Source of the DNA: Acidimicrobiia bacterium
GTDB taxonomy: Bacteria; Actinomycetota; Acidimicrobiia; IMCC26256; PALSA-610
Assembly (NCBI GenBank): GCA_036271555.1
Contig: DATBAK010000037.1
Span: forward strand, 1 to 64,000
Direction: 5' to 3'
DNA: 64,000 bases
Part shown: piece after piece, positions 13,849 to 64,000 of the stretch
Layout of the letters: each line of letters opens with the position of its first letter
How positions within the stretch are numbered: position 1 is the stretch's first letter
Position numbers and translations under genes: made by a program
The notes under the pieces: generated by a model
Told to the model about the DNA's origin: nothing
What the model saw: only the letters and a program-made list of their open reading frames with translations
Databases searched by the model: none

Positions 13849-13898
13849 CCGCGGTCCTGCCGGCCCGGCCGGTCATCCGGGGGGAGCAGAATCACGGC

Positions 13899-15155
13899 GT
13901 GCCCGACCGCCGTCGCGATCCTCTCCCCGGCGCCGTCCACGCGTCGATCGAGCGCACGGTCCGGCTCGAGTGGGGACACGTCGTCGCCGGCCTGACGCGG
14001 CGCTTCGGCGATCTCGCGCTCGCCGAGGACGCCGCGCAGGACGCGCTGACCGCCGCGCTCGAGACGTGGCCGCGGTCCGGCGTTCCCGACAACCCCGCGG
14101 CGTGGATCACGACGACCGCGCGCCGGAAGGCGCTCGATCGCGTGCGCCGCGATGCGACCCTCGCGCGCAAGGTCGAACAGCTCGAACGGGACACGCCGGC
14201 GGTCCCGGCCGAGCTCGCACCCGCGCCGATCGACGACGACCGCCTCTGCCTGCTGTTCACCTGCTGCCACCCGTCGCTCCCCATCGAGACGCGCGTCGCG
14301 CTCACGCTCAAGGCGGTCGCGGGACTCAGCACATCCGAGCTCGCACGCGCGTTCGTCGTGAGCGAGCCGACGATCTCGCAGCGCATCGTGCGCGCCAAGC
14401 GCAAGATCCGCGCCGCCGGCATTCCCTTCCGTGTGCCGCCGCCCGAGCTGCTCGCGGAACGCCTTGCGGGCGTGCTCGCCTGCCTCTACCTGATCTTCAA
14501 CGAGGGCTACACCGCGACCGCCGGCGACGATCTCGTGCGCGACGACCTGTGTCGCGAAGCGATCCGCCTCACGCGCCTCGTGCGCAGCGGGTTCAGTGCC
14601 GATCCCGAGGTCGTGGGATTGCTCGCGCTCATGTTGTTGCACCACGCTCGCCGCGCCGCGCGCATCACCGACGACGGCGACCTCGTGCTGCTCGAGCAGC
14701 AGGATCGCAGTCGTTGGGACCACGCCGAGATCACGGAAGGCGAGACACTGGTCGACTCCGCGCTACGCGCGGGCGACGTCGGTCAATACCAGGTGCAGGC
14801 CGCGATCGCCGCGCTGCACGCGACCGCCGCGAGCGTCGACGAGACCGACTGGACCGAGATCGCCGCGCTCTACGGCGTGCTCGCGCAGCTCGCACCCGGA
14901 CCCGTCATCGAGCTCAACCGCGCGGTCGCGATCGCGATGGCCGACGGTCCGCGCGCCGGGTTGGCGCAACTCGCACCGCTCGCGGAACCGCTCGCCGCGC
15001 ACCACCCGTACCACGCCGCGCGCGCCGAGCTCCTGCGGCGCGCCGGAGAAGACGTCGCGGCGCGCGCCGCGTACGACCGCGCGATCGAGCTCGCTTCGAA
15101 CCTCCGCGAGCGCGCCGCGCTCGAACGCCGACGCGCATCACTCACGCCGTCGTGA
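13899..15155 (+). CDS. ECF42-like sigma factor with C-terminal helical extension
   Basis: 418 aa from GTG 13899. Region 2 lies at about residues 12-85 ([39 protein letters not shown]) and region 4 at about 105-165 ([20 protein letters not shown]). A long alpha-helical TPR-like extension of about 230 residues follows ([36 protein letters not shown]). That size and the adjacent DGPF gene mark the ECF42 group, which has no anti-sigma factor and is thought to be controlled through the extension. Its stop overlaps a PPTase start (GTGA at 15152-15155). Confidence 0.92.
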
Positions 15156-15712
15156 GCGAACCGCTCGCGATCGAGGTCGTGATCGTCGACATCGTCGATG
15201 TCGAGCCGCGCCGCGCGTCGACCGTCCTCGACACTGCGGCGCGCGTCGTGATCGGCAGCCGCCTCGCGGTCTATCCGACCCTCGTCTTCATCGAGCGCGA
15301 GCCGAGCGGACGTCCGATCGCCGAGGGCGTCGCGCTCAGCCTCGCGCACTCCGGCGGGCTCGGCGCGATCGCGATCAGCGATCCCGGCGCGCGCGTCGGC
15401 ATCGACGTCGAACGCGTGCGGCCGCGTCGGTACCTCGACCGAATCGCGACCCGCATCTTCGACGCCGACGAGCTCGTCGCGTTGGCCGCGCTCGACGACG
15501 CCGCGCGACTTCTGGCATTCCTCCGGCGTTGGACCGAGGTCGAGGCGATCTTGAAGGCGCAGGGCACCGGCATCGCGGGCGGCTTCGCGAACGCGGTGCC
15601 GCGACCCCACGGTTGGTCGTGCGAGCCGATCGACTGCGGCCCCGGCTTCGTCGGCACCGTCGCCGCCGACGCCCCCTCGATGAAGGTGCAGACGCGTCGA
15701 CTTGGAAACTGA
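15152..15712 (+). CDS. 4'-phosphopantetheinyl transferase superfamily protein
   Basis: 186 aa. Sfp/AcpS-type magnesium motif GIDVERVRP and the second motif [15 protein letters not shown] are visible. Such enzymes transfer phosphopantetheine from CoA to carrier proteins. In the second motif the canonical W-x-x-K-E-A has Val in place of Lys, while Glu and the later Lys (LKA) are kept. The N-terminal half is short compared with Sfp (about 225 aa). GTG start overlapping the sigma-factor stop implies translational coupling, an unexpected pairing. No carrier-protein gene is in the window. Confidence 0.82.
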
Positions 15713-51383: not shown

Positions 51384-52439
51384 TCAAACCGCGACCTGGA
51401 CGCTCTTGCCGTCCTTCCACTCGCGCAGCACCAGGTAGGGGCCCTTGAGCGCGGCGTGCTCGTACACGCCGAAGCCCATGATCGTGCCCGCGTGACCGCT
51501 GGTCGCCGGGAGCAGCTTCACGCGCCGCAGTCCCTCGGCGATGCCCTCACGCGTGAGGTGATCGCACCGCGCGATCGCCTCGCCGACGAGCCGGCCCATG
51601 TCGTACGCGCCGCAGCCGACGGGGCTCAACGCGGCGCGCGGCGAGCGCTCGCGGAGCGCGTCGCGCAACGGGTTGTCGTCGGCGATCGTGTCGATGTACT
51701 CCCAACCGCGGTAGCCGTCACGCCAGTCGGGGCGCGCGTAGCCGAACATCAGCGCCGAGTTCGAGAGCACCGGCACGTCCCACTCGAGCTCCGCGAGCGC
51801 GAGTGCCACCGCGCGCGACGACACACCGAGACCGAAGTACACGAGCGCGCTCGGCGCGCCCTCGCGGAGACGGGCGACGACGTCGACGAGCTGCTCGGTG
51901 AGCGGTGAGATCGTCGCCGAGCCGGTGACGTCGAGACCGAGCCGGCCGCGCGCGGCCTCGAACGCCTCCGCGTAGCGACGACCGACGGGGGACTGATCGC
52001 TGATCACCGCGCAGCTGCGCAGCCCGCGGTCGACGAGTCGCTGCGCGAGCATCGGTGGCTCTTCCTCGAGCGAGCCGATCTGGTAGTGGAACATGAGCTC
52101 GCTGCGCGTGCGCTCGCCGCCGGTGTAGTTGATGGCGGGCAGGCCCGCGGCGTCGCAGAGCGGAGCGACGATCAGCGCGTTATCGGAGATCGACGGACCC
52201 ACCATCACGAGCGCGCCCGATTGCTCGATCTCGGCGAAGCCCTGCTTCATCTCGTGCTCGCTGCCCGACGGCAGGCCGCGCACGTGGCTGCTCACGAAGT
52301 CGACCGCGCGGTCGAGCCGACCGGTCGCGGCGACATCGTCGAGTCCGAGGCGCAGCGCCGCTTCGAACCCGGCGCCCCCGTCGCCTTGGGGGAAGTCGTA
52401 GAGCAGTCCGATGAGGATGGGAGTCGGCGCGTGATCCAT
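51384..52439 (-). CDS. Type I solute-binding protein (LivJ-like) without signal peptide
   Basis: 351 aa periplasmic-binding fold. ILIGLLYDFPQGDGGAGFEA, LVMVGPSISDNALIVAPL and AYDMGRLVGEAIARCD are typical of branched-chain amino acid/amide-binding proteins. ATG 52439 gives MDHAPTPILIG with no signal peptide, and no hydrophobic leader is found upstream in frame. It may be a cytoplasmic ligand sensor or an enzyme-associated binding protein. It lies 1.2 kb from a complete Liv-type transporter operon. Confidence 0.87.
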   Translation of the reverse strand: MDHAPTPILIGLLYDFPQGDGGAGFEAALRLGLDDVAATGRLDRAVDFVSSHVRGLPSGSEHEMKQGFAEIEQSGALVMVGPSISDNALIVAPLCDAAGLPAINYTGGERTRSELMFHYQIGSLEEEPPMLAQRLVDRGLRSCAVISDQSPVGRRYAEAFEAARGRLGLDVTGSATISPLTEQLVDVVARLREGAPSALVYFGLGVSSRAVALALAELEWDVPVLSNSALMFGYARPDWRDGYRGWEYIDTIADDNPLRDALRERSPRAALSPVGCGAYDMGRLVGEAIARCDHLTREGIAEGLRRVKLLPATSGHAGTIMGFGVYEHAALKGPYLVLREWKDGKSVQVAV

Positions 52440-52548: not shown

Positions 52549-52968
52549 ATGAATGCGGACGCGATGCGCGCGCTGGTGCGCCGGCACATCGGCGAGGGCT
52601 TCAATCGCGGCGACTGGACCGTGTGCGAGACCACGCTCGCCGACGACTACACCGCGTTCTACGGCGCCGACGGTGAGGCGAACGTCGGACGCGAGCACTA
52701 TGTCCGCGTCTGCCGCTTCCTGCGCAAGTCGTTCCCCGACGTCGCGATCACGATCGAGGACCTCGTCGTCGAGCGCTCGACGATCGTGATGCGCTACATC
52801 GAGCGGGGCACGCTCACGGGTCGACCGTTCCTCGACATCGAGCCCGCGGGTCAGCAGTACGCGAAGCCGGGCACGACGCTCTACCAGGTGGAACGGGGAC
52901 GGCTGGCGCGCTCGTGGGGAGTCGAGGACACGCTCGGCTGGTTCCGTCAGCTGGGCAAGTACGAATGA
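52549..52968 (+). CDS. SnoaL-like/ester cyclase family protein
   Basis: 139 aa cone-shaped alpha+beta (NTF2-like) protein. It starts ALVRRHIGEGFNRGDW, then DVAITIEDLVVERSTIVMRY and a PGTTLYQVERGRLARSWGVED end. Such proteins bind small hydrophobic ligands or isomerise them. ATGA overlap (52965-52968) with the acyltransferase gene implies coupling. Confidence 0.85.
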   Translation: MNADAMRALVRRHIGEGFNRGDWTVCETTLADDYTAFYGADGEANVGREHYVRVCRFLRKSFPDVAITIEDLVVERSTIVMRYIERGTLTGRPFLDIEPAGQQYAKPGTTLYQVERGRLARSWGVEDTLGWFRQLGKYE

Positions 52969-53597
52969 GCAACCACGATCGGTTCGGCGCGTGGCGTGCC
53001 GCCGTGGTGCAGCGCGCGTGGCACGGCGCCGTGCGGTACGGCGCGATCGGTCCGCAGCAACGCGCGGCGCGAGAGTTCCAACGGTTCGGCGCCGGCAGCA
53101 TGATCAGCTTCCCGCCGACCGTGATCTTCGGTGAGGGTCGCATCGCGATCGGCGAGGGTACGTCGATCGGACCGCTCGCCTCGCTGAGCGCGGGCATGCC
53201 CGTGCACGCGGGTCGGCGCGGCGATCCGATCATCACGATCGGCGACCGCTGCACGCTCGGCAAGGGCATCGGCATCGTCGGCCACGAGCGCATCGAGCTC
53301 GGTGACGACATCTGGACCGGGCACTTCGTCTACATCACCGATCAGAACCACGGTTACGAGGACGTGGCGCAGCCGATCGGCACGCAGATGTGGAACGACG
53401 CGCCGGTCGTGATCGGCTCGGGCTCGTGGCTCGGCCACGGCTGCGTGATCCTGCCGGGCGTGACGATCGGCGAGCACGTCGCGGTCGCCGCGGGTGCGGT
53501 CGTGACGAGCGCCGTGCCTGCGTTCAGCGTCGTCGCGGGCGTGCCCGCGCGCGTCATCCGCCGCTACGTCGACGGCGAATGGGTGCGCGCGGACTGA
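52965..53597 (+). CDS. Hexapeptide-repeat acyltransferase (WbbJ/LbH type)
   Basis: 210 aa left-handed beta-helix. It shows YITDQNHGYEDVAQPIG (catalytic His region), WLGHGCVILPGVTIGEHVAV and SVVAGVPARVIRRYV, as in maltose/serine O-acetyltransferase and sugar acetyltransferase families. It transfers an acetyl or acyl group to a sugar-like acceptor. Coupled to the SnoaL-like gene; no other surface-polysaccharide genes nearby. Convergent with the transporter operon (36-nt gap). Confidence 0.88.
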   Translation: MSNHDRFGAWRAAVVQRAWHGAVRYGAIGPQQRAAREFQRFGAGSMISFPPTVIFGEGRIAIGEGTSIGPLASLSAGMPVHAGRRGDPIITIGDRCTLGKGIGIVGHERIELGDDIWTGHFVYITDQNHGYEDVAQPIGTQMWNDAPVVIGSGSWLGHGCVILPGVTIGEHVAVAAGAVVTSAVPAFSVVAGVPARVIRRYVDGEWVRAD

Positions 53598-53633: not shown

Positions 53634-55346
53634 TTACTTGCTCGGCTTCGGATAGGTCGGTGGCTGCATCTCCGCGGGCACGGTCGTGAAGTTCGTGATC
53701 GTGTCGGCCGAATCGAAGAACTTGATCGGATCCGTCGGCAGGTGGCCGGGGAGGAAGCGGCGGCCGCTGTCGATGTAGCGGTAGGCGCCGGTGCCGGTGG
53801 TGCCGGTCTCGTCGGCGACGCCCTTGGCCGTCGGGTCGTACCAAATGAGGTTGAGGTTGTCGAGGCCGCCGAAGTCGGTGCCGCCCGGCCACAGGCCATG
53901 GTTCCCGTAGGAGAAGATCGCGCGCAGGCCGTTGGCGGATTCGGGCGCGACCGGCTGGTCCTCGAGGCCCGCGCTGAAGTTCGCGACGGTGAGGTGCGGG
54001 CCCGCGAGCTGGAGCCCCGTGAACATCACGTCGACGTCGCCCTCGACGATCCCGGTCGTGTTGAGGTCCGGCGGCGGCGTCCCGAAGTACCACTCGTGCA
54101 GCTGGTAGTCGTCGTGCTGCGTCTCGGGGAACTGCGCGCCGACGATGCCGATGCCGAACGCGTGCTTCCACTGCGTCTGGTCGTATCCCCGCGCGAACAC
54201 GTCGGTGTCGGCGTACACGGTGCCCGAGATGATCCACTCGGGGAAGTAGTGCTGCTTCGTGGCCTCGGCCGTGAAGTACTTGGGCAGCAGCGGGTCACCG
54301 CTGAAGATCACGCTCGTCGCACCCGAGCTCTTCAGCTTCGTGATGATCGTGCGCGCGTCGTCCTGCGCGGTCGTGAGGTTCAGGAAGTACGACACGTGCG
54401 TCGTGAGCGGCGTGCCCTGCGCCTTCATGCTGTTGGAGAACGAGTCCCAGATCGGCTTGAACTGCCCGTCGGGCGTGTCGTAGCTGAGCAGCGCGAACTT
54501 GCGCGTCGTGTGCTGGAAGCTCGAGTCGCCCGCGTAGACCGCGTCCTTGCCGGCGAGTTGCTTCTTGATGAGCTCGAGCGTGTCGTCGGCGGGCTGGTCG
54601 GCGGTCGGTCCCGCCCCGAACAGTCCGGGGTGCTGCTCGTAGAACGAGTGCGGCTGCGCGATGAGGCAGTTGCCGATGCACATGACGCCGCGGTTCGTGA
54701 GCTCGTCGGCGAAGGCGTTGGTCTGCGTCGGACCGTTCAGCACCGCGAACGCGTGCAGCTCGGTCGCGGCCTTGATCGCGTCGGCGCGCGCCGCGGTCGC
54801 GTCGGTCGCGGTGCCGGTGCCGTGGAGCAGCTCGAGGTTGATCTTGCGGCCGTAGAGCTCGTGCGTCGCCGCGAAGATCTTGATGTAGTCGCGTACGCCC
54901 TGCACCTGTTGATCGGGACTGTCGTACGCGCCGACGGAGCGCGTGAGCGCGTCGGTCTGCGGGTCGGGCTTCGCCACGTAGAAGACGATGTTGATCGACG
55001 TCGACGAGACGCCGGGCGCGGTCGCGCCGCCGTTGGCGCCGTGGAACGCGGGCACACACGGCGCGGCCTGGAGGATCGGGATCGCGACCTTCCCCGTCTT
55101 CGGATCGCACGTCGACTGCCACGTGTAGCTCGATGTGGTGCTCGCGTCCTTCGCGGCCGCGTACGTGATCGGCAACTCCGACTTCGAGCCGCCGCGGTTG
55201 GACGACTTCGTGTTGTCGTCCGACTTGTTGCTCTTGCGGCCGCCGAGGAAGACCGCGACGAGCACGATCACCACCGCGATCGCGAGGAACGGCGCGTAGC
55301 GCTTCAGCGCGTTCGAGCGGCGGACGGGAGGTGGCGGTGCCTGCAT
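53634..55346 (-). CDS. Membrane-anchored type I solute-binding protein of Liv-type transporter
   Basis: 570 aa. One N-terminal membrane helix (APFLAIAVVIVLVAVFLGG, residues about 18-36) with no lipobox Cys anchors a large extracytoplasmic binding domain. SINIVFYVAKPDPQTDALT, LNGPTQTNAFADELTNRGVMC and IFSGDPLLPKYF fit the LivJ/type I fold. At 570 aa it is larger than usual (about 400). GGGAG precedes ATG 55346. It is the last gene of the TetR-LivHM-MFS/LivF/LivG operon and should deliver substrate to that permease. Confidence 0.9.
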   Translation of the reverse strand: MQAPPPPVRRSNALKRYAPFLAIAVVIVLVAVFLGGRKSNKSDDNTKSSNRGGSKSELPITYAAAKDASTTSSYTWQSTCDPKTGKVAIPILQAAPCVPAFHGANGGATAPGVSSTSINIVFYVAKPDPQTDALTRSVGAYDSPDQQVQGVRDYIKIFAATHELYGRKINLELLHGTGTATDATAARADAIKAATELHAFAVLNGPTQTNAFADELTNRGVMCIGNCLIAQPHSFYEQHPGLFGAGPTADQPADDTLELIKKQLAGKDAVYAGDSSFQHTTRKFALLSYDTPDGQFKPIWDSFSNSMKAQGTPLTTHVSYFLNLTTAQDDARTIITKLKSSGATSVIFSGDPLLPKYFTAEATKQHYFPEWIISGTVYADTDVFARGYDQTQWKHAFGIGIVGAQFPETQHDDYQLHEWYFGTPPPDLNTTGIVEGDVDVMFTGLQLAGPHLTVANFSAGLEDQPVAPESANGLRAIFSYGNHGLWPGGTDFGGLDNLNLIWYDPTAKGVADETGTTGTGAYRYIDSGRRFLPGHLPTDPIKFFDSADTITNFTTVPAEMQPPTYPKPSK

Positions 55347-55370
55347 GTGGATCTCCCTGCTCGGTTCGAA

Positions 55371-58300
55371 TCAGATCGGGGTCGAGGACGCGGCGGGTTG
55401 CGCCGTGCCGTTGCCGCTGGCGCTGCCGCTGCGGCTGATCGCGGCTTCGGTGGTACCGAGGTACGACGCGACGACGCGCGGGTCGTGCACGACGTCGGCA
55501 GGTGCGCCGGTCGTGACGACCTCGCCGAGCTCGAGCGCGACGATGCGGTCGGCGATCGACAGCAACAAGGGCACGTCGTGCTCGATCACGAGGAGGCTCG
55601 CGCCGGTCTCGTTGCGGATGCGCAGCAGCAGCGGGCCGAGCGCCTCGGCCTCGCGCTGCGCGATGCCCGACGACGGTTCGTCGAGCAGCAGCACCGTTGG
55701 CTCGTGCGCGAGCACGCACGCGAGGTCGACGACGCGCCGGCTGCCGGTCGACAGCTCACGCGTGAGCTTGTCGCGGAAGTCGGTGATGCCGAGCAACTCG
55801 AGCAGCTGCTCGACGCGCTCGCGCACGTGCAGCTCCGAGTCGGTGACCGACGGGAGGTGCAACGCGGCGGCGATCGGATCGCGGACTTCGACGCGGCGCT
55901 CGAGCGCGACCGCGATCGTCTCCGCGACGGTGAGCGCGGGAAAGAGGCGGCCGTCCTGGAACGAACGTCCGAGACCGAGTCGCGCGCGTGCCGCCGCACC
56001 GAGCCGCGTGACGTCGCGCACGCCCGCGCCGGAGCCGTCGTCGAACCCGATCGTGCCCGCGTCGGCCGGGAGGAAGCCCGAGACGACGTCGAACAGCGTG
56101 GTCTTGCCCGCGCCGTTCGGGCCGAGGAAGCCCACGATCTCGCCGCCACCGACGTCGACGGTCACGTCGGTCAGCGCGTGCAGCCCGCCGAAGCGCTTCC
56201 CGACGCCGATGAGCGCGAGGCGCGTCGGTCCCACCGTCACGGCGGGCGCGACCGGCGCGTCCGCGCGCTCACTCGCCGCGCCGTTCGGCGCGCTCACCGT
56301 CGCGGCGCCCTCGAGGAACACGGACCGCAGCACGTCGGGCCGGTCGAGCAGCTCCGCGGTCGGGCCGTGGAAGCGGATCTCGCCCTTCTCCATGAAGTAC
56401 GCGGTTTCGGCGAGCGTGAGCGCGAGGTTCACCGACTGCTCGACGAGGATGATCGTCGTCCCGTTGGCGCGGATCTCGTGCACGATCGGCAGCAGCTGCT
56501 CGACGACCGCGGGCGCGAGCCCGAGCGAGAGCTCGTCGATCATCAGCAGCCGCGGCCGCGTCACGAACGCCATGCCGAGCGTGAGCATCTGCTGCTGACC
56601 CCCGGACAGGTTCCCGGCCGGTTCCTCGAGCCGCTCGCGCAACACGGGGAAGAGCGAGAGCACGTGCTCGACGCCTTCGCGCGTGCGCACGTGGTCGCGC
56701 CGGTGCAGCCAGCCCGCGAGCCGCAGGTTCTCGTTGACGGTGAGCGACGGGAACACGCCCGCGCCGCCCGGCACCTGCACGACTCCGCGCCCCGCGACCT
56801 CGTTGGGAGGCGCGTACGTCATGTCGCGTCCGTCGAACACGATCGCACCGTTGGTCGCCTCGACGACACCGGAGATCGATTTCAACAACGTCGACTTGCC
56901 CGCGCCGTTCGTGCCGAGCAGCGCGACGATCTCGCCCTCGTCGATCTCGAAGTTGACGCCGAACAGCACCTGCACGCCGTCGTACGCGACGTCGAGATTG
57001 CGCACGAGCAGCAGTTTGGCGAGCCCCTGCTTGCGCAGGTACGCGACCTCGGCCTGCGCGGCCGTCGACGTCCACACGCGGTTGATGTCGGACTTCACGT
57101 AGAGCGACGCGGACGCGATCGTCCACGCGCCGATGAGGAAGATCGGGCCGACGAAGAGCAGGCCTTGGCGGATGCCCCAGTGATTCGAGATGTAGCCGAC
57201 GACCTCGAGCGTGAGCACGCCGGGCACGACGAACAGCGACGACATCGAATAGCCGAGTGATCGCACCTTCGGCGGGATGCAGAGGCTCAGCGACGCGTAG
57301 ATGCCCGGTGCGAGCAGCGACACGACACCGCCGATGAAGACGTTCAACACGATCGCGACCCAGAGCACGGGCGTGAGCGCGAACACGGTGAACGCGGCGG
57401 CGACGATCACGCCGACGACCGCGAGCAGGCGCAGGCCGAGCCCGGGATCGGTGAGCATCATGCGACTCGCGAGCGGGATGCCGAGCATGAGCCCGATCGC
57501 GGCCGCGGGCTCGGTGCCCGCGTTGATGAAGCCCCGAGCGCGCTCGTCGAGGTGGTAGATCTCCTGGTAGTAGAGCGACGTGAGGGTCACGAGCCCGACG
57601 ATCGACGCCGCGAGGAACGGCAGCGAGTACCAGATCCGTCGCAGCGTGCGCACTTGCCAGAGGATGCGCACCGACTCCGCGAACGACGGTGGAACTTCGT
57701 CGGTCGCGATCGTCTCCGCGCTCGCGCCGGCGGCTTCGCGCTCCCAGTGACCGCGCAGCGGCTCGTGCAGCTTGAACGCGAGCACCGCGAACACCAGTGT
57801 CGGGAACGCGAACACGACGAACGGTGTGCGCCAGCCGAAGTAGTAGCCGAGCAGGCCGCCGCCGAACGCGCCGATCGCGGAGCCGACGGCGGTACCGATG
57901 CGATGGAAGCCGAAGACGTCGGTGCGCTTCTCGATCGGGTAGTAGTCGGCGAGCAGCGAGTTGTGTGTCGGCGTGACGACGGCCTTCCCGACGCCCGAGC
58001 CGCTGCGCATGATCCACAGCAACCAGATCGTCGTCGCAGCTCCGGTCGCGAGGCCGAACACCGCCCACACGAACGCGCCGGCGATCGCGATCGACACGCG
58101 GTGCAGCCGGTCGGAGAAGTAGGCGAGCGGCACTTCGAGCAGCAGTCCGCCGAGGAGCGTGAGCGCGATGAGCGTGAGGACGCCTTGGTCCGACAGGTGG
58201 AACGCGTCGCGGATGTCGGGCACGAGCACCGCGAGCGCGGAGCGATCGAGCTCGGCCGCCGCGTTCAGGCCGAAGAGCACGATCAGTGGGTAGACACGTT

Positions 58301-58388
58301 CGGCGCCGGTCAGCTCCGCGAAGTAGCGCTTGGGCGTGCGCGGCTTGTGCAGCCGCACCGTGCCGATGTCGAGGCCGAGGATCTTCAC
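55371..58388 (-). CDS. MFS-LivF-LivG triple-domain fusion transporter protein
   Basis: 1005 aa in one open frame. Residues 30-430 form a 12-helix major-facilitator domain (LNAAAELDRSALAVLVPDIR, RSGSGVGKAVVTPTHNSLLA). Residues 460-690 are a LivF-like ATPase: Walker A 492-500 (GTNGAGKST), signature NLSGGQQQM at 593-601, Walker B LLMIDEL at 614-620. Residues 722-980 are a LivG-like ATPase: Walker A 756-764 (GPNGAGKTT), degenerate signature LSTGSRR, Walker B VLLLDEPSSG. GTG 58388 overlaps the stop of the LivH-LivM gene (GTGA), so it is translated with it. I know no characterised protein of this layout. Confidence 0.93.
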   Translation of the reverse strand: MKILGLDIGTVRLHKPRTPKRYFAELTGAERVYPLIVLFGLNAAAELDRSALAVLVPDIRDAFHLSDQGVLTLIALTLLGGLLLEVPLAYFSDRLHRVSIAIAGAFVWAVFGLATGAATTIWLLWIMRSGSGVGKAVVTPTHNSLLADYYPIEKRTDVFGFHRIGTAVGSAIGAFGGGLLGYYFGWRTPFVVFAFPTLVFAVLAFKLHEPLRGHWEREAAGASAETIATDEVPPSFAESVRILWQVRTLRRIWYSLPFLAASIVGLVTLTSLYYQEIYHLDERARGFINAGTEPAAAIGLMLGIPLASRMMLTDPGLGLRLLAVVGVIVAAAFTVFALTPVLWVAIVLNVFIGGVVSLLAPGIYASLSLCIPPKVRSLGYSMSSLFVVPGVLTLEVVGYISNHWGIRQGLLFVGPIFLIGAWTIASASLYVKSDINRVWTSTAAQAEVAYLRKQGLAKLLLVRNLDVAYDGVQVLFGVNFEIDEGEIVALLGTNGAGKSTLLKSISGVVEATNGAIVFDGRDMTYAPPNEVAGRGVVQVPGGAGVFPSLTVNENLRLAGWLHRRDHVRTREGVEHVLSLFPVLRERLEEPAGNLSGGQQQMLTLGMAFVTRPRLLMIDELSLGLAPAVVEQLLPIVHEIRANGTTIILVEQSVNLALTLAETAYFMEKGEIRFHGPTAELLDRPDVLRSVFLEGAATVSAPNGAASERADAPVAPAVTVGPTRLALIGVGKRFGGLHALTDVTVDVGGGEIVGFLGPNGAGKTTLFDVVSGFLPADAGTIGFDDGSGAGVRDVTRLGAAARARLGLGRSFQDGRLFPALTVAETIAVALERRVEVRDPIAAALHLPSVTDSELHVRERVEQLLELLGITDFRDKLTRELSTGSRRVVDLACVLAHEPTVLLLDEPSSGIAQREAEALGPLLLRIRNETGASLLVIEHDVPLLLSIADRIVALELGEVVTTGAPADVVHDPRVVASYLGTTEAAISRSGSASGNGTAQPAASSTPI

Positions 58389-60592
58389 CGCGCCGGCTCC
58401 GTGAGCTCCGGCTCCGATTCCGGCTTCGATTCCGACGCCGATGGTTGCGCGGAGACCGTGGGGATCTCGGGCGCGGCCGTCGCGACCATCGTGTCGGCAA
58501 CGAGGCTCGGCACGCGGATGCCGCGCCGCCGCGCGAACCAGCGCAGACCCTCGTCGCGCAGGTCGCCGAACGCGCCACCGAGCCCGCCCGGGAGCAGCAT
58601 GAGCACGAGCAGCATGCCCGCTCCGGTCGCGAGGAACGACCACTCCGACGGCAGGAACCAGTTGATGCCCTGCACGTAGATCGCGCCAGCGATCGCGCCC
58701 GACATCGAGCCGAGACCGCCGACGACGACCATCGAGAAGACGGTGAGCGCGGCGGCAGGTTGGAAGTTGGCGAGGTCGAGCGCGCGCTGCTGGTGCACGA
58801 ACAGCGCGCCGGCGACACCCGAGATGAACCCCGACACCGCGAACGCGATGACCACGGCGCGGCGCGCGTCGATGCCGTACGACTCCGCGGCCCGCTCGTT
58901 CTCGCGCGTGCCGATGAGCACGCGTCCCGTACGGCTCGTGCGCAAACCGCGTACCGCGACGAGCGTCAGCCCGAGCATCACGAGGATCAGGACGTAGAAG
59001 CGCGTCTCGCTCCCGACCGCGATCGCGCCGAACACGCGCGTGCGCTCGATCCGGCCCTTCGGCAACCACGACGAGAAGAACTGCGGGTTCAGGAGATAGC
59101 TCGACGTGACGAGCGCGAGCGCGAGGGTCGTGACCGCAAACGAGAGCCCGCGGGCGCGCAGCGTCGGCAATCCGACGACCGTCATCACGACCGCACCGAC
59201 GCAGCCACCCGCGAGCATCACGAGCGACATGTCCCAGTGGTATCGGGTCGTGAGCGAACCCGCGACCGCGGCCGCGATGCCGACGACCGCGACCTGTCCC
59301 AGGCTCACCTGGCCGGCCCAACCCGTGAGCACGACGAGCGAGATGCCGATCATCGCGAAGATGCCGATCGTGCCCGCGAGCAGCACGCGGCTCTCACCCA
59401 TGAACAGCGGGACCGCCGCGAGCCCGAACAGCGCCAGCAAACCGAGCACCCACTGCGCGGCGACGACCTCGCGTACGCCGCGCAATTCGTTCGGGATCGG
59501 CCGCGTCTCGCGCGTCGCCTGCCAGGTCGAGACGTCGTCGGCGCCGACGCGGTTGCGACTCCGGTCCCGTGCGAAGAGCACGGCGACCACGATGATGAGG
59601 GCGATGACCGCGTCGCGGTAGCCGTCCTGGTTCCACGCGAACTTCACGCTCTGGTCGACGACGCCGAGCCCGATCGCGGCGCCGACGATCGTCGGCATCT
59701 TCTCCATGCGCCCGATCACCGCCGCGCCCAGCGCGGGCAGCAGGATCTCCGGTCCGAGCACCTGGCCGATGCTCACGCCGACGACGCCGGCGCGCAGGAA
59801 CAGCCCGACGAACGCGAGGACCGCCGAGATCATCCACACGATCGTGTGCAGGCGCTTCACCGGGACTCCGAGCAGCAGCGCGCGGCTCGCGCTCTCCGCG
59901 CTGCCGCGCAGGCCGATGCCGATCGCGCTGAAGCGCATGAACCACGCGAGCGCGAGCAGCACGAGCGGCGCGACGACGAAGACCGCGACGTCGTTGCCGT
60001 TGAACGCGACCTGCCCGAACGTGAAGTCGACGTGAACGGGCGGGCTGTATTGCGGCGACGACAGGTTGCCGAACCAACCGGGCATGAAGAACGAGAAGCC
60101 GACGAGCACCTGCGTGATCCCGATCGTCGCGACCGTGAGGATCAGGCGCGGCGCGGTGAAGAAGCGGCGGACGAAGATCAGCTCGACGAGCGCGCCGAGC
60201 ACCGCGGCCGAGAGCAGGCCGACCGGCATCGCGAACCAATAGCTCCAGCCCTTGGCGAGGATGAGGAGCGACGCGAGCAGCGACGGCACGATGCCGAGGT
60301 CGGCCTGCGCGAAGTTGATGATGCGGTTGGCGCGGAACGTGAGGGCGAGGCCGACTGCGATGAGCGACGACAGGAGCCCGAGCTCCGCGCCGTTGAGCGT
60401 GACGCCCCACGGCACGTGCCGCCAGAGCAGCCGCGAGCCGACGACGAGAACGAGGAACGGCGCGGCGGCCACGAGCGCGCGTCGCACCCCGCCGTCACGG
60501 GAGAGGTCGAGCGCGAGAAAACCGTGTTCGCGTTGGCGCGTTGCTGTGTCGCCGGTGTCGTGCAGCTGCGGCTCCCCCCGAAGCACGTTCAC
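58385..60592 (-). CDS. LivH-LivM fused branched-chain-type ABC permease
   Basis: 735 aa. Residues about 40-345 are LivH-like (TFRANRIINFAQADLGIVPS, the ALGAAVIGRMEKMP segment) and residues about 375-690 are LivM-like (LTGWAGQVSLGQVAVVGIAA, VVVGGLGSMSGAIAGAIYV). Both halves of the pore are thus in one chain. The Pro/Glu/Ser tail after residue 700 is cytoplasmic. GTG 60592 with AGGAG 6 nt before. It sits 9 nt after the TetR gene. Confidence 0.93.
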   Translation of the reverse strand: MNVLRGEPQLHDTGDTATRQREHGFLALDLSRDGGVRRALVAAAPFLVLVVGSRLLWRHVPWGVTLNGAELGLLSSLIAVGLALTFRANRIINFAQADLGIVPSLLASLLILAKGWSYWFAMPVGLLSAAVLGALVELIFVRRFFTAPRLILTVATIGITQVLVGFSFFMPGWFGNLSSPQYSPPVHVDFTFGQVAFNGNDVAVFVVAPLVLLALAWFMRFSAIGIGLRGSAESASRALLLGVPVKRLHTIVWMISAVLAFVGLFLRAGVVGVSIGQVLGPEILLPALGAAVIGRMEKMPTIVGAAIGLGVVDQSVKFAWNQDGYRDAVIALIIVVAVLFARDRSRNRVGADDVSTWQATRETRPIPNELRGVREVVAAQWVLGLLALFGLAAVPLFMGESRVLLAGTIGIFAMIGISLVVLTGWAGQVSLGQVAVVGIAAAVAGSLTTRYHWDMSLVMLAGGCVGAVVMTVVGLPTLRARGLSFAVTTLALALVTSSYLLNPQFFSSWLPKGRIERTRVFGAIAVGSETRFYVLILVMLGLTLVAVRGLRTSRTGRVLIGTRENERAAESYGIDARRAVVIAFAVSGFISGVAGALFVHQQRALDLANFQPAAALTVFSMVVVGGLGSMSGAIAGAIYVQGINWFLPSEWSFLATGAGMLLVLMLLPGGLGGAFGDLRDEGLRWFARRRGIRVPSLVADTMVATAAPEIPTVSAQPSASESKPESEPELTEPAR

Positions 60593-60601
60593 CCTTGCTC
60601 C

Positions 60602-61285
60602 TCACCGCCCACGCCGGCGTCCCCTTCCGGCGCGCGCGGGCGCCATGGTCGCACGCGCCTCCGTGGCAGTGGCGTCACCTGCCCGCAGCAGCGCCCGCAA
60701 CGTGTCGGTGACGGTCGCGGTGGCGGCGGCGAGCCCGAGGTTGCGGCGCACGCGGAGGAACTCCCACGACTCGGAGCTCGTGAGCGCGTCGCAGGCGTCG
60801 AGGGTGCGGGCACGCGTCTCGGGCCCGAGCGCGTCGAGCTCGATCGCGAAGACCCGTTCGAGCTCGACGCGGCCCTGACGGCGCGCGTAGCGGGTCGCGT
60901 TCGCGAGCGCCGGCGACCACGGCTCCTGCAGCGCAGTCGCCTTCGCGACCGGTGCGATCGCGTCCAGCACGGCCGTGCGTTGGTTCGAGAACGCGACGAG
61001 CCGGTCCTCGAACGGACCGTCGGTCGACAGCGGCCGCACGAGCGCGCCGACGCGGGTGCGCTGCTCGCGTGCGGCGGCGAGGAAGAGATCGTCGAGGTCC
61101 TCGAAGTGGACATAGACCGAGCGCAGCGAGATGCCCGCGCGCTCGGCGATGCGCCCCGCCGTCGGCCGGAGGTCGCCTTCGGCGATGAGACCGAGCAGGG
61201 CCCGGACCACCGCGTCCCGCGTCCGCCGCGCGCGCGCCGAGCGGCCGTCGAGCGTCGGTTGCGCAGCCGGTTGCGGCGTTGCCAC
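60602..61285 (-). CDS. TetR-family transcriptional regulator
   Basis: 227 aa from GTG 61285. The N-terminal HTH is RTRDAVVRALLGLIAEG and RIAERAGISLRSVYVHFED. The C-terminal ligand domain is unlike named families, and the tail is Arg/Ala-rich. As the first gene of the transporter operon it probably controls it and senses the transported compound. Upstream 61286-61429 is a divergent gap. Confidence 0.93.
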   Translation of the reverse strand: MATPQPAAQPTLDGRSARARRTRDAVVRALLGLIAEGDLRPTAGRIAERAGISLRSVYVHFEDLDDLFLAAAREQRTRVGALVRPLSTDGPFEDRLVAFSNQRTAVLDAIAPVAKATALQEPWSPALANATRYARRQGRVELERVFAIELDALGPETRARTLDACDALTSSESWEFLRVRRNLGLAAATATVTDTLRALLRAGDATATEARATMAPARAGRGRRRGR

Positions 61286-63395: not shown

Positions 63396-64000
63396 TCACA
63401 TGCGCTTCGCTTCGATGATGCTGCGCAGGAACGTGCGGGTGCGCTCGCGCGTCGGCGCGCTGAAGACCTGCGCGGGCGGGCCTTCTTCCTCGATCCGGCC
63501 TTCGTAGAGGAACACGACCTTGCTCGCGACGTCGCGCGCGAAGCCCATCTCGTGTGTCGCGATGAGCATCGTCATGCCCTCGCTCGCGAGCTGGCCGACG
63601 AGCGTGAGCACTTCCGACACGAGCTCCGGGTCGAGCGCGCTCGTCACCTCGTCGAGGAGCATGACCCGCGGCTGCATCGCGAGCGCGCGGACGATCGCGA
63701 CGCGCTGCTGCTGGCCGCCCGACAGCCGGTCCGGATAGTCGTCGCGCTTGTCCCAGAGCCCGATGCGGTTGAGCAGCGCGTGCGCGCGCTCGGCCGCGTC
63801 CTTCTGCGACAGCTTCAGCACCTTGCGGGGCGCGAGCGTGACGTTCTGCACGACGCTCATGTGCGGGAAGAGGTTGTAGCTCTGGAAGACGATGCCGATG
63901 TCCTGACGCAACGCGTTGAGGTCGACCCCGCGGCCCGACACGCGCTCGCCTTCGATGCGGATCTCGCCCTGTTCGATCGTCTCCAGCGCGTTCACACACC
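63396..64000 (-). CDS. Polar amino acid ABC transporter ATP-binding protein (GlnQ-like), 5' end outside window
   Basis: The C-terminal 201 residues are present; the frame is open to the edge. It starts within [13 protein letters not shown], just after the Walker A region, which lies outside. Q-loop [12 protein letters not shown], signature [15 protein letters not shown], Walker [15 protein letters not shown] and the H-loop His (IATHEMGF) are intact. GlnQ/HisP group: energises uptake of polar amino acids. Permease and binding-protein genes should lie upstream of the window. Confidence 0.93.

Follow-up and report, generated by a model that had tools for sequence, protein, structure and literature searches.

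The window, a whole stretch of 64,000 nucleotides of DNA from an Acidimicrobiia bacterium, contains a transporter locus with the minus-strand gene order TetR-type regulator, fused LivH-LivM permease (LivHM), MFS-LivF-LivG fusion and binding protein. The four open reading frames described in an earlier note on this DNA were all found at the positions given there. The locus and its surroundings comprise the following features:

60602..61285, minus strand: TetR-type regulator of 227 aa, upstream of the transporter genes; TetR_N (Pfam) barely over the cut-off
58385..60592, minus strand: LivHM, fused LivH-LivM permease of 735 aa; two BPD_transp_2 domains (Pfam)
58385..58388, minus strand: 4-nt overlap of the LivHM stop with the GTG start of the fusion (sequence)
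55371..58388, minus strand: MFS-LivF-LivG triple fusion of 1005 aa (Pfam; AlphaFold2 model)
57099..58301, minus strand: MFS domain of the fusion, residues 30-430, 12 helices, Spinster-like by PDB sequence and fold matches
57984-57986, minus strand: Lys135, at the TM4 proton-switch position of Spns proteins in the window's MFS (residue table)
57012..57098, minus strand: predicted helical MFS-to-LivF linker, residues 431-459 (DSSP helix 431-453; indel count)
56298..57011, minus strand: LivF-type ATPase, residues 460-697 (Pfam, NCBIfam, fold match)
55434..56225, minus strand: LivG-type ATPase, residues 722-985, with signature LSTGSRR (Pfam, NCBIfam, fold match)
53634..55346, minus strand: membrane-anchored substrate-binding protein of LivJ fold, 570 aa, TM 12-40 (homologues and model)
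52914..53597, plus strand: hexapeptide-repeat acyltransferase (Hexapep match), convergent with the binding-protein gene
51384..52439, minus strand: second Peripla_BP_6 protein (Peripla_BP_6 E 2.1e-18), without evident signal peptide
63396-63998, minus strand: another ABC ATPase, of polar-amino-acid type by its motifs, reaching the window edge

The Pfam search proposed in the earlier note recognized one MFS_1 region (E 1.3e-38) and two ABC_tran regions in the fusion protein, as well as the two BPD_transp_2 domains of the permease. NCBIfam models placed the ATPases of the fusion with UrtE/LivF and LivG/UrtD, and the permease matched the UrtB/UrtC and LivH/LivM models at scores under the cut-offs of those models. 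Both ATPases have intact and conserved Walker A, Walker B and signature motifs, in agreement with the earlier reading of the Walker motifs. The LivF domain matches the fold of 1ji0 (Z 32.5, 42% identity), while the fold matches of the LivG domain are LptB structures (Z about 31). All 57 triple fusions that were aligned share the LivG signature LSTGS/TRR. A paralogue from the window's own genome, in which the domains are arranged as MFS-LivF and LivH-LivM-LivG, has LSTGTRR; the E. coli LivG signature is LAYGQQR.

Branched-chain-type ABC importers of the Liv/HAAT group (TC 3.A.1.4) are exemplified by LivJ/K-HMGF of E. coli. The window's system resembles them in having two BPD_transp_2 domains, LivF and LivG, and a binding protein of LivJ fold, all encoded in one cluster, but differs in that the five roles are distributed over three chains, the MFS domain precedes LivF, and LivG carries the signature LSTGSRR. 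A complete Liv-type importer, as had been claimed, is therefore encoded here: the permease, LivF and LivG with intact motifs, and the LivJ-fold binding protein are all present. Translational coupling of LivHM and the fusion, proposed from the 4-nt overlap, is supported by a -4 overlap in most of the plus-strand homologues scored (n=43). This count leans to overlaps, since among the in-frame start codons really present the one closest to the end of the permease gene was taken. The TetR gene at the front of the cluster exists in the window, but is not a general feature, as a regulator of this kind (P0004-like) occurs in only 10 of the 30 loci with enough upstream sequence.

Occurrence of the fusion and related architectures

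A scan of genome contigs by exact peptide patterns, which distant fusions outside Actinomycetota could escape, revealed more than 30 loci with MFS and the ATPases; their sources were nearly always Acidimicrobiia or unnamed Actinomycetota, with Candidatus Microthrix among them. Matches to the fusion at E <= 1e-80 are found in 121 of the 395 genomes of the window's class, and in at least 46 of the 395, among the matches listed, one alignment spans the whole fusion. Full-length relatives are also carried by further families of the phylum. After removal of the window's duplicate (L001), 57 full-length open frames were gathered, with 45 different sequences of the MFS region among them. LivHM is located directly upstream of the fusion in 67/67 testable loci and a binding-protein gene downstream of it in 32/37, some loci that occur in both collections being counted twice. 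The triple fusion is real, with the same domain order and gene neighbourhood in other genomes, and is conserved across dozens of genera of mostly uncultured actinobacteria.

The probability that an assembly error or frameshift joined neighbouring genes is negligible. Dozens of independent genomes, the single-contig genomes G002, G003 and G345 among them, contain both junctions, and the linker is conserved among the frames from independent assemblies, which excludes frameshift or misassembly for practical purposes. The one-contig genome G110 also carries the fusion, with a longer LivF-LivG linker. Two records, L045 and L037, are titled Bifidobacterium breve and Acidobacteria; their sequences group with Acidimicrobiia, and they are probably mislabelled or contaminated MAGs.

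The layout of the window, LivHM with MFS-LivF-LivG, is designated T. In the D layout MFS-LivF is combined with LivH-LivM-LivG; it is represented by about 20 loci, one of them in the window's own genome. This own-genome locus (G000:C84; L098:8527-13844 and 13881-15374) encodes MFS-LivF of 739 aa and LivH-LivM-LivG of 1032 aa. A gene for a LivJ-like lipoprotein lies there on the other strand, and the surroundings include enoyl-CoA hydratase and thiolase-like genes. The Q layout is a single chain, LivH-LivM-LivF-LivG, of about 1250-1330 residues without MFS, encoded next to a binding-protein gene at 11 loci (L100-L106, L157-L160). LivF is covalently joined to a membrane domain, either MFS or LivM, in every T, D and Q system. 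LivHM together with LivF-LivG, again without MFS, is found in L043 and L099.

In the LivF tree, which like the MFS tree carries long-branch warnings, T proteins form one clade (97/94) and D proteins another (99/94). The MFS-free L043 falls inside the T clade beside L088 (96/85), and this nested position suggests secondary loss of MFS in L043. In the MFS tree the T and D proteins each group, and are placed with the stand-alone L134, apart from most stand-alone relatives.

The MFS domain and its junction with LivF

The AlphaFold2 model of the fusion (pLDDT 84, pTM 0.70, 34 sequences in the alignment) was built without the LivHM partner, and the position of MFS relative to LivF was not read from it. 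In this model the end of TM12 runs on as a helix (residues 431-453 by DSSP) into LivF. No indels occur in the MFS-LivF linker (residues 431-460) in any of the 45 distinct sequences; the LivF-LivG linker has indels in 44 of the 45 and is 28-84 residues long. The MFS-LivF linker of the D family, 40-41 residues by a different measure, is nearly constant too. The MFS-LivF junction is predicted to be a continuous, rigid helix.

The best PDB sequence match of the MFS domain is HnSpns (6e8j, E 9.7e-17). In fold it comes closest to human Spns1 (9boi, Z 39.0) and then Spns2 (8ex5, Z 37.8), with the other MFS folds SV2A (Z 37.4) and VAChT (Z 36.5) close behind. Judged from these sequence and model comparisons, the MFS part of the fusion is Spinster-like.

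In Spns proteins HnSpns E129 (MsSpns E126, Spns1 E164) is the proton switch, and HnSpns D60:R289 (MsSpns D57:R255) the signature periplasmic salt bridge (PMC9440201; PMC13192786, preprint). Uptake of LPC by Spns1 is impaired by E164A/E164K (PMC13192786, preprint). The position of HnSpns E129 is occupied by K/R in 37 of the 45 distinct triple fusions and by an acidic residue in 1/45; it is acidic in none of the 21 proteins of the D (MFS-LivF) clade. At the salt-bridge positions of the triple fusions, the D60 position is Asp in 4/45 and the R289 position Arg in 4/45, where the HnSpns reference was taken from a printed alignment without residues 178-201 and later positions were renumbered by 24. 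The window's own MFS keeps Asp67, but has Glu276 as the other partner. Unlike the proton-switch Glu and the salt bridge, the gating residues of Spns proteins are invariant in the triple fusions: D48, D93, R94, R97, R128 and D148 are present in 45/45 distinct sequences, and the TM1 Asp, the TM4 Arg and the motif A charge relay (HnSpns D41, R122 and D87/R91/D142) are kept in all 45. The fused domain thus resembles the Spns proteins (HnSpns, MsSpns, SPNS1/SPNS2) in its top sequence and fold matches, TM1 Asp, TM4 Arg and motif A relay, and differs from them in the replacement of the switch Glu by Lys/Arg, the mostly missing periplasmic Asp:Arg pair and the two attached ABC ATPases.

Among close pairs, dN/dS of the MFS domain lies in the range 0.08-0.29 in most cases, reaches 0.46 in a single pair, and is usually somewhat higher than that of the ATPases; by this sequence measure the domain is under purifying selection throughout. 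The lowest mean entropies belong to TM1 (0.95) and TM4 (1.12), vs 1.26-1.87 elsewhere. Between the cavity and support helices compared as groups, no significant difference in conservation was found, with a trend only (p 0.06).

The loss of both the proton switch and the periplasmic salt bridge is what would be expected if the MFS domain were a pseudo-transporter, that is, a non-transporting scaffold or allosteric regulator holding LivF at the membrane and tuning its ATPase. This main rival explanation is doubtful, yet has to be taken seriously, as it also accords with the rigid junction, with the attachment of LivF to either MFS or LivM, both of them membrane domains, throughout the T, D and single-chain systems, and with SV2A among the top structural matches. 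To our knowledge, SV2A is an MFS protein without established transport function. The invariant TM1/TM4 site and motif A charge relay and the purifying selection acting on the whole MFS domain argue against a mere scaffold, as do L043 and L099, whose LivF-LivG without any attached membrane domain indicates that a membrane anchor for LivF is dispensable. The suggestion of the earlier note that MFS acts as a passive tether of the ATPases is likewise weakened, since close relatives without MFS keep the importer; its two other suggestions, coupling of import with export and a second substrate path, are both compatible with the sequence.

Stand-alone relatives of the MFS domain carry mostly Q, K or N at the switch position when they are nearest to the fusions, and E only when more distant. 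Loss of the switch Glu as a result of fusion is therefore ruled out; it precedes or accompanies fusion. No Liv genes were found near the stand-alone MFS genes at nine such loci and at L107, within the flanking sequence examined, and a free-standing MFS beside unfused Liv genes was thus rejected as the fusion precursor. The free-standing MFS of L107 (L107:6701-7915, minus strand) is 43% identical to the fused MFS, has no ABC domains and carries Lys at the switch position. It groups in the T clade of the MFS tree, its C-terminal end lies near the linker start, and it is possibly a product of gene fission.

A close relative of the fused domain that stands free of ABC domains, in L107, and a close relative of the system that lacks MFS, L043, would suit an ordinary independent secondary carrier, which the fusion only co-expresses or co-localises with the importer, and which might, for example, export a product of the imported substrate. 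The complete 12-helix fold and intact motif A are in line with this. Such a role is nevertheless unlikely: co-expression would need less than a length-invariant helical junction, the residues of Spns proton coupling are replaced, and the fusion has been kept in dozens of genera and in two architectures.

Proposed mode of operation

We tentatively prefer, at a probability somewhat short of even, a reading in which a single Spns-like module is rigidly docked on a Liv-type importer and transports an anionic amphiphile without the canonical Spns proton cycle. The T chain holds both ATPases and the D pair one of each, so that one MFS per complex is expected; one MFS per LivF is seen in both layouts, and this chain composition suggests a 1:1 stoichiometry. 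Each complex would carry exactly one Spinster-like MFS, with its TM12 helix rigidly joined to the N terminus of LivF. ATP-driven import of one substrate would be the task of the binding protein, LivHM and the two ATPases, as in other Liv systems. The MFS domain would most likely use a cavity of its own to move an anionic amphiphile, and would do so without the proton cycle that is canonical for Spns proteins. In that cavity the basic residue 135 would join R49 and R128 near the substrate site of Spns, as placed by homology. The cargo of MFS may be related to the substrate of the importer: either a carboxylate of lipid-like or aromatic nature, or a compound formed when the substrate is catabolised. 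We infer the transport competence of the MFS domain, as well as its substrate class, its direction and the absence of proton coupling. The MFS-free relatives (the Q systems, L043 and L099) show that the importer works without it, and MFS need not share the reaction of the importer.

The replaced proton-coupling residues and the rigid covalent link between LivF and the moving half of MFS could also mean that the ATPase cycle mechanically drives or gates MFS through the TM12-LivF helix. We know of no precedent for an ATP-coupled MFS, the NBDs are also expected to drive LivHM, and the structural model was obtained without LivHM; this mechanism is highly improbable. A hybrid primary transporter, in which proton coupling of MFS was swapped for ATP and the LivF-LivG cycle drives or gates the Spns-like cavity alongside LivHM, may be envisaged with a low probability.

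Besides the single Spns-like module docked on a Liv-type importer, which we favour, other proteins offer partial parallels. The twin ATPases OppD and DppD of M. tuberculosis, the top Foldseek matches, likewise combine two NBDs in one chain for one importer; OppABCD and DppABCD are, in contrast, peptide importers without an MFS domain. Fusions of the LplT-Aas type join an MFS lysolipid carrier to an acyltransferase/ligase of the same pathway. They share with the present system the fusion of MFS to a partner, which there is the acyltransferase/ligase and here the ATPases of an ABC importer. No described case of an MFS-ABC fusion was found in the literature searched, mostly outside subscription journals. 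The statement of the earlier note that no studied member of this layout is known agrees with the absence of a paper in that literature, but the layout itself is common in sequenced Actinomycetota. The families of the parts are known; what is new is the way they are combined, together with the changes at the proton-coupling positions.

ABC importers and MFS carriers are commonly viewed as distinct machines, each with an energy source of its own. In the present systems the two are locked together, in two different arrangements of the parts, over much of a bacterial class. The single-chain and MFS-free relatives provide natural controls for the role of MFS on an ABC importer, and the system lets one ask whether an MFS protein can lose proton coupling or gain ATP coupling.

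Binding protein, neighbouring genes and possible substrates

The binding protein was described earlier as membrane-anchored, and this description is upheld by one N-terminal transmembrane helix (12-40) followed by a type I periplasmic fold of LivJ type (model pLDDT 89). The protein itself has no Pfam match and no match among PDB sequences, and 15 of 36 homologues match Peripla_BP_6. The fold matches of its model are LivJ-type proteins that bind leucine, aromatic acids (hydroxybenzoate) and fatty acids. Assignment of a substrate from these matches was abandoned, since amino, aromatic and fatty acids are all represented, without discrimination.

Genes found in the neighbourhood of related loci encode an AMP-binding ligase, PhyH, an alpha/beta hydrolase and an amidohydrolase, and enoyl-CoA hydratase at the D locus; this set fits, weakly, the catabolism of hydrophobic carboxylates. 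No paper on fatty-acid transport in Microthrix was found in the literature searched. The hexapeptide acyltransferase has counterparts of 45-73% identity at about 20 related loci; most of these encode MFS-fused systems, and the MFS-free L103 and L160 are also among them. By association it is a conserved neighbour, and at most a candidate partner of the transporter. The second Peripla_BP_6 protein (51384-52439) occurs in 10 related loci with 54-73% identity, the similarity starting at the IGLLYDFPQ segment, and is possibly an AmiC-like cytosolic sensor of the imported substrate.
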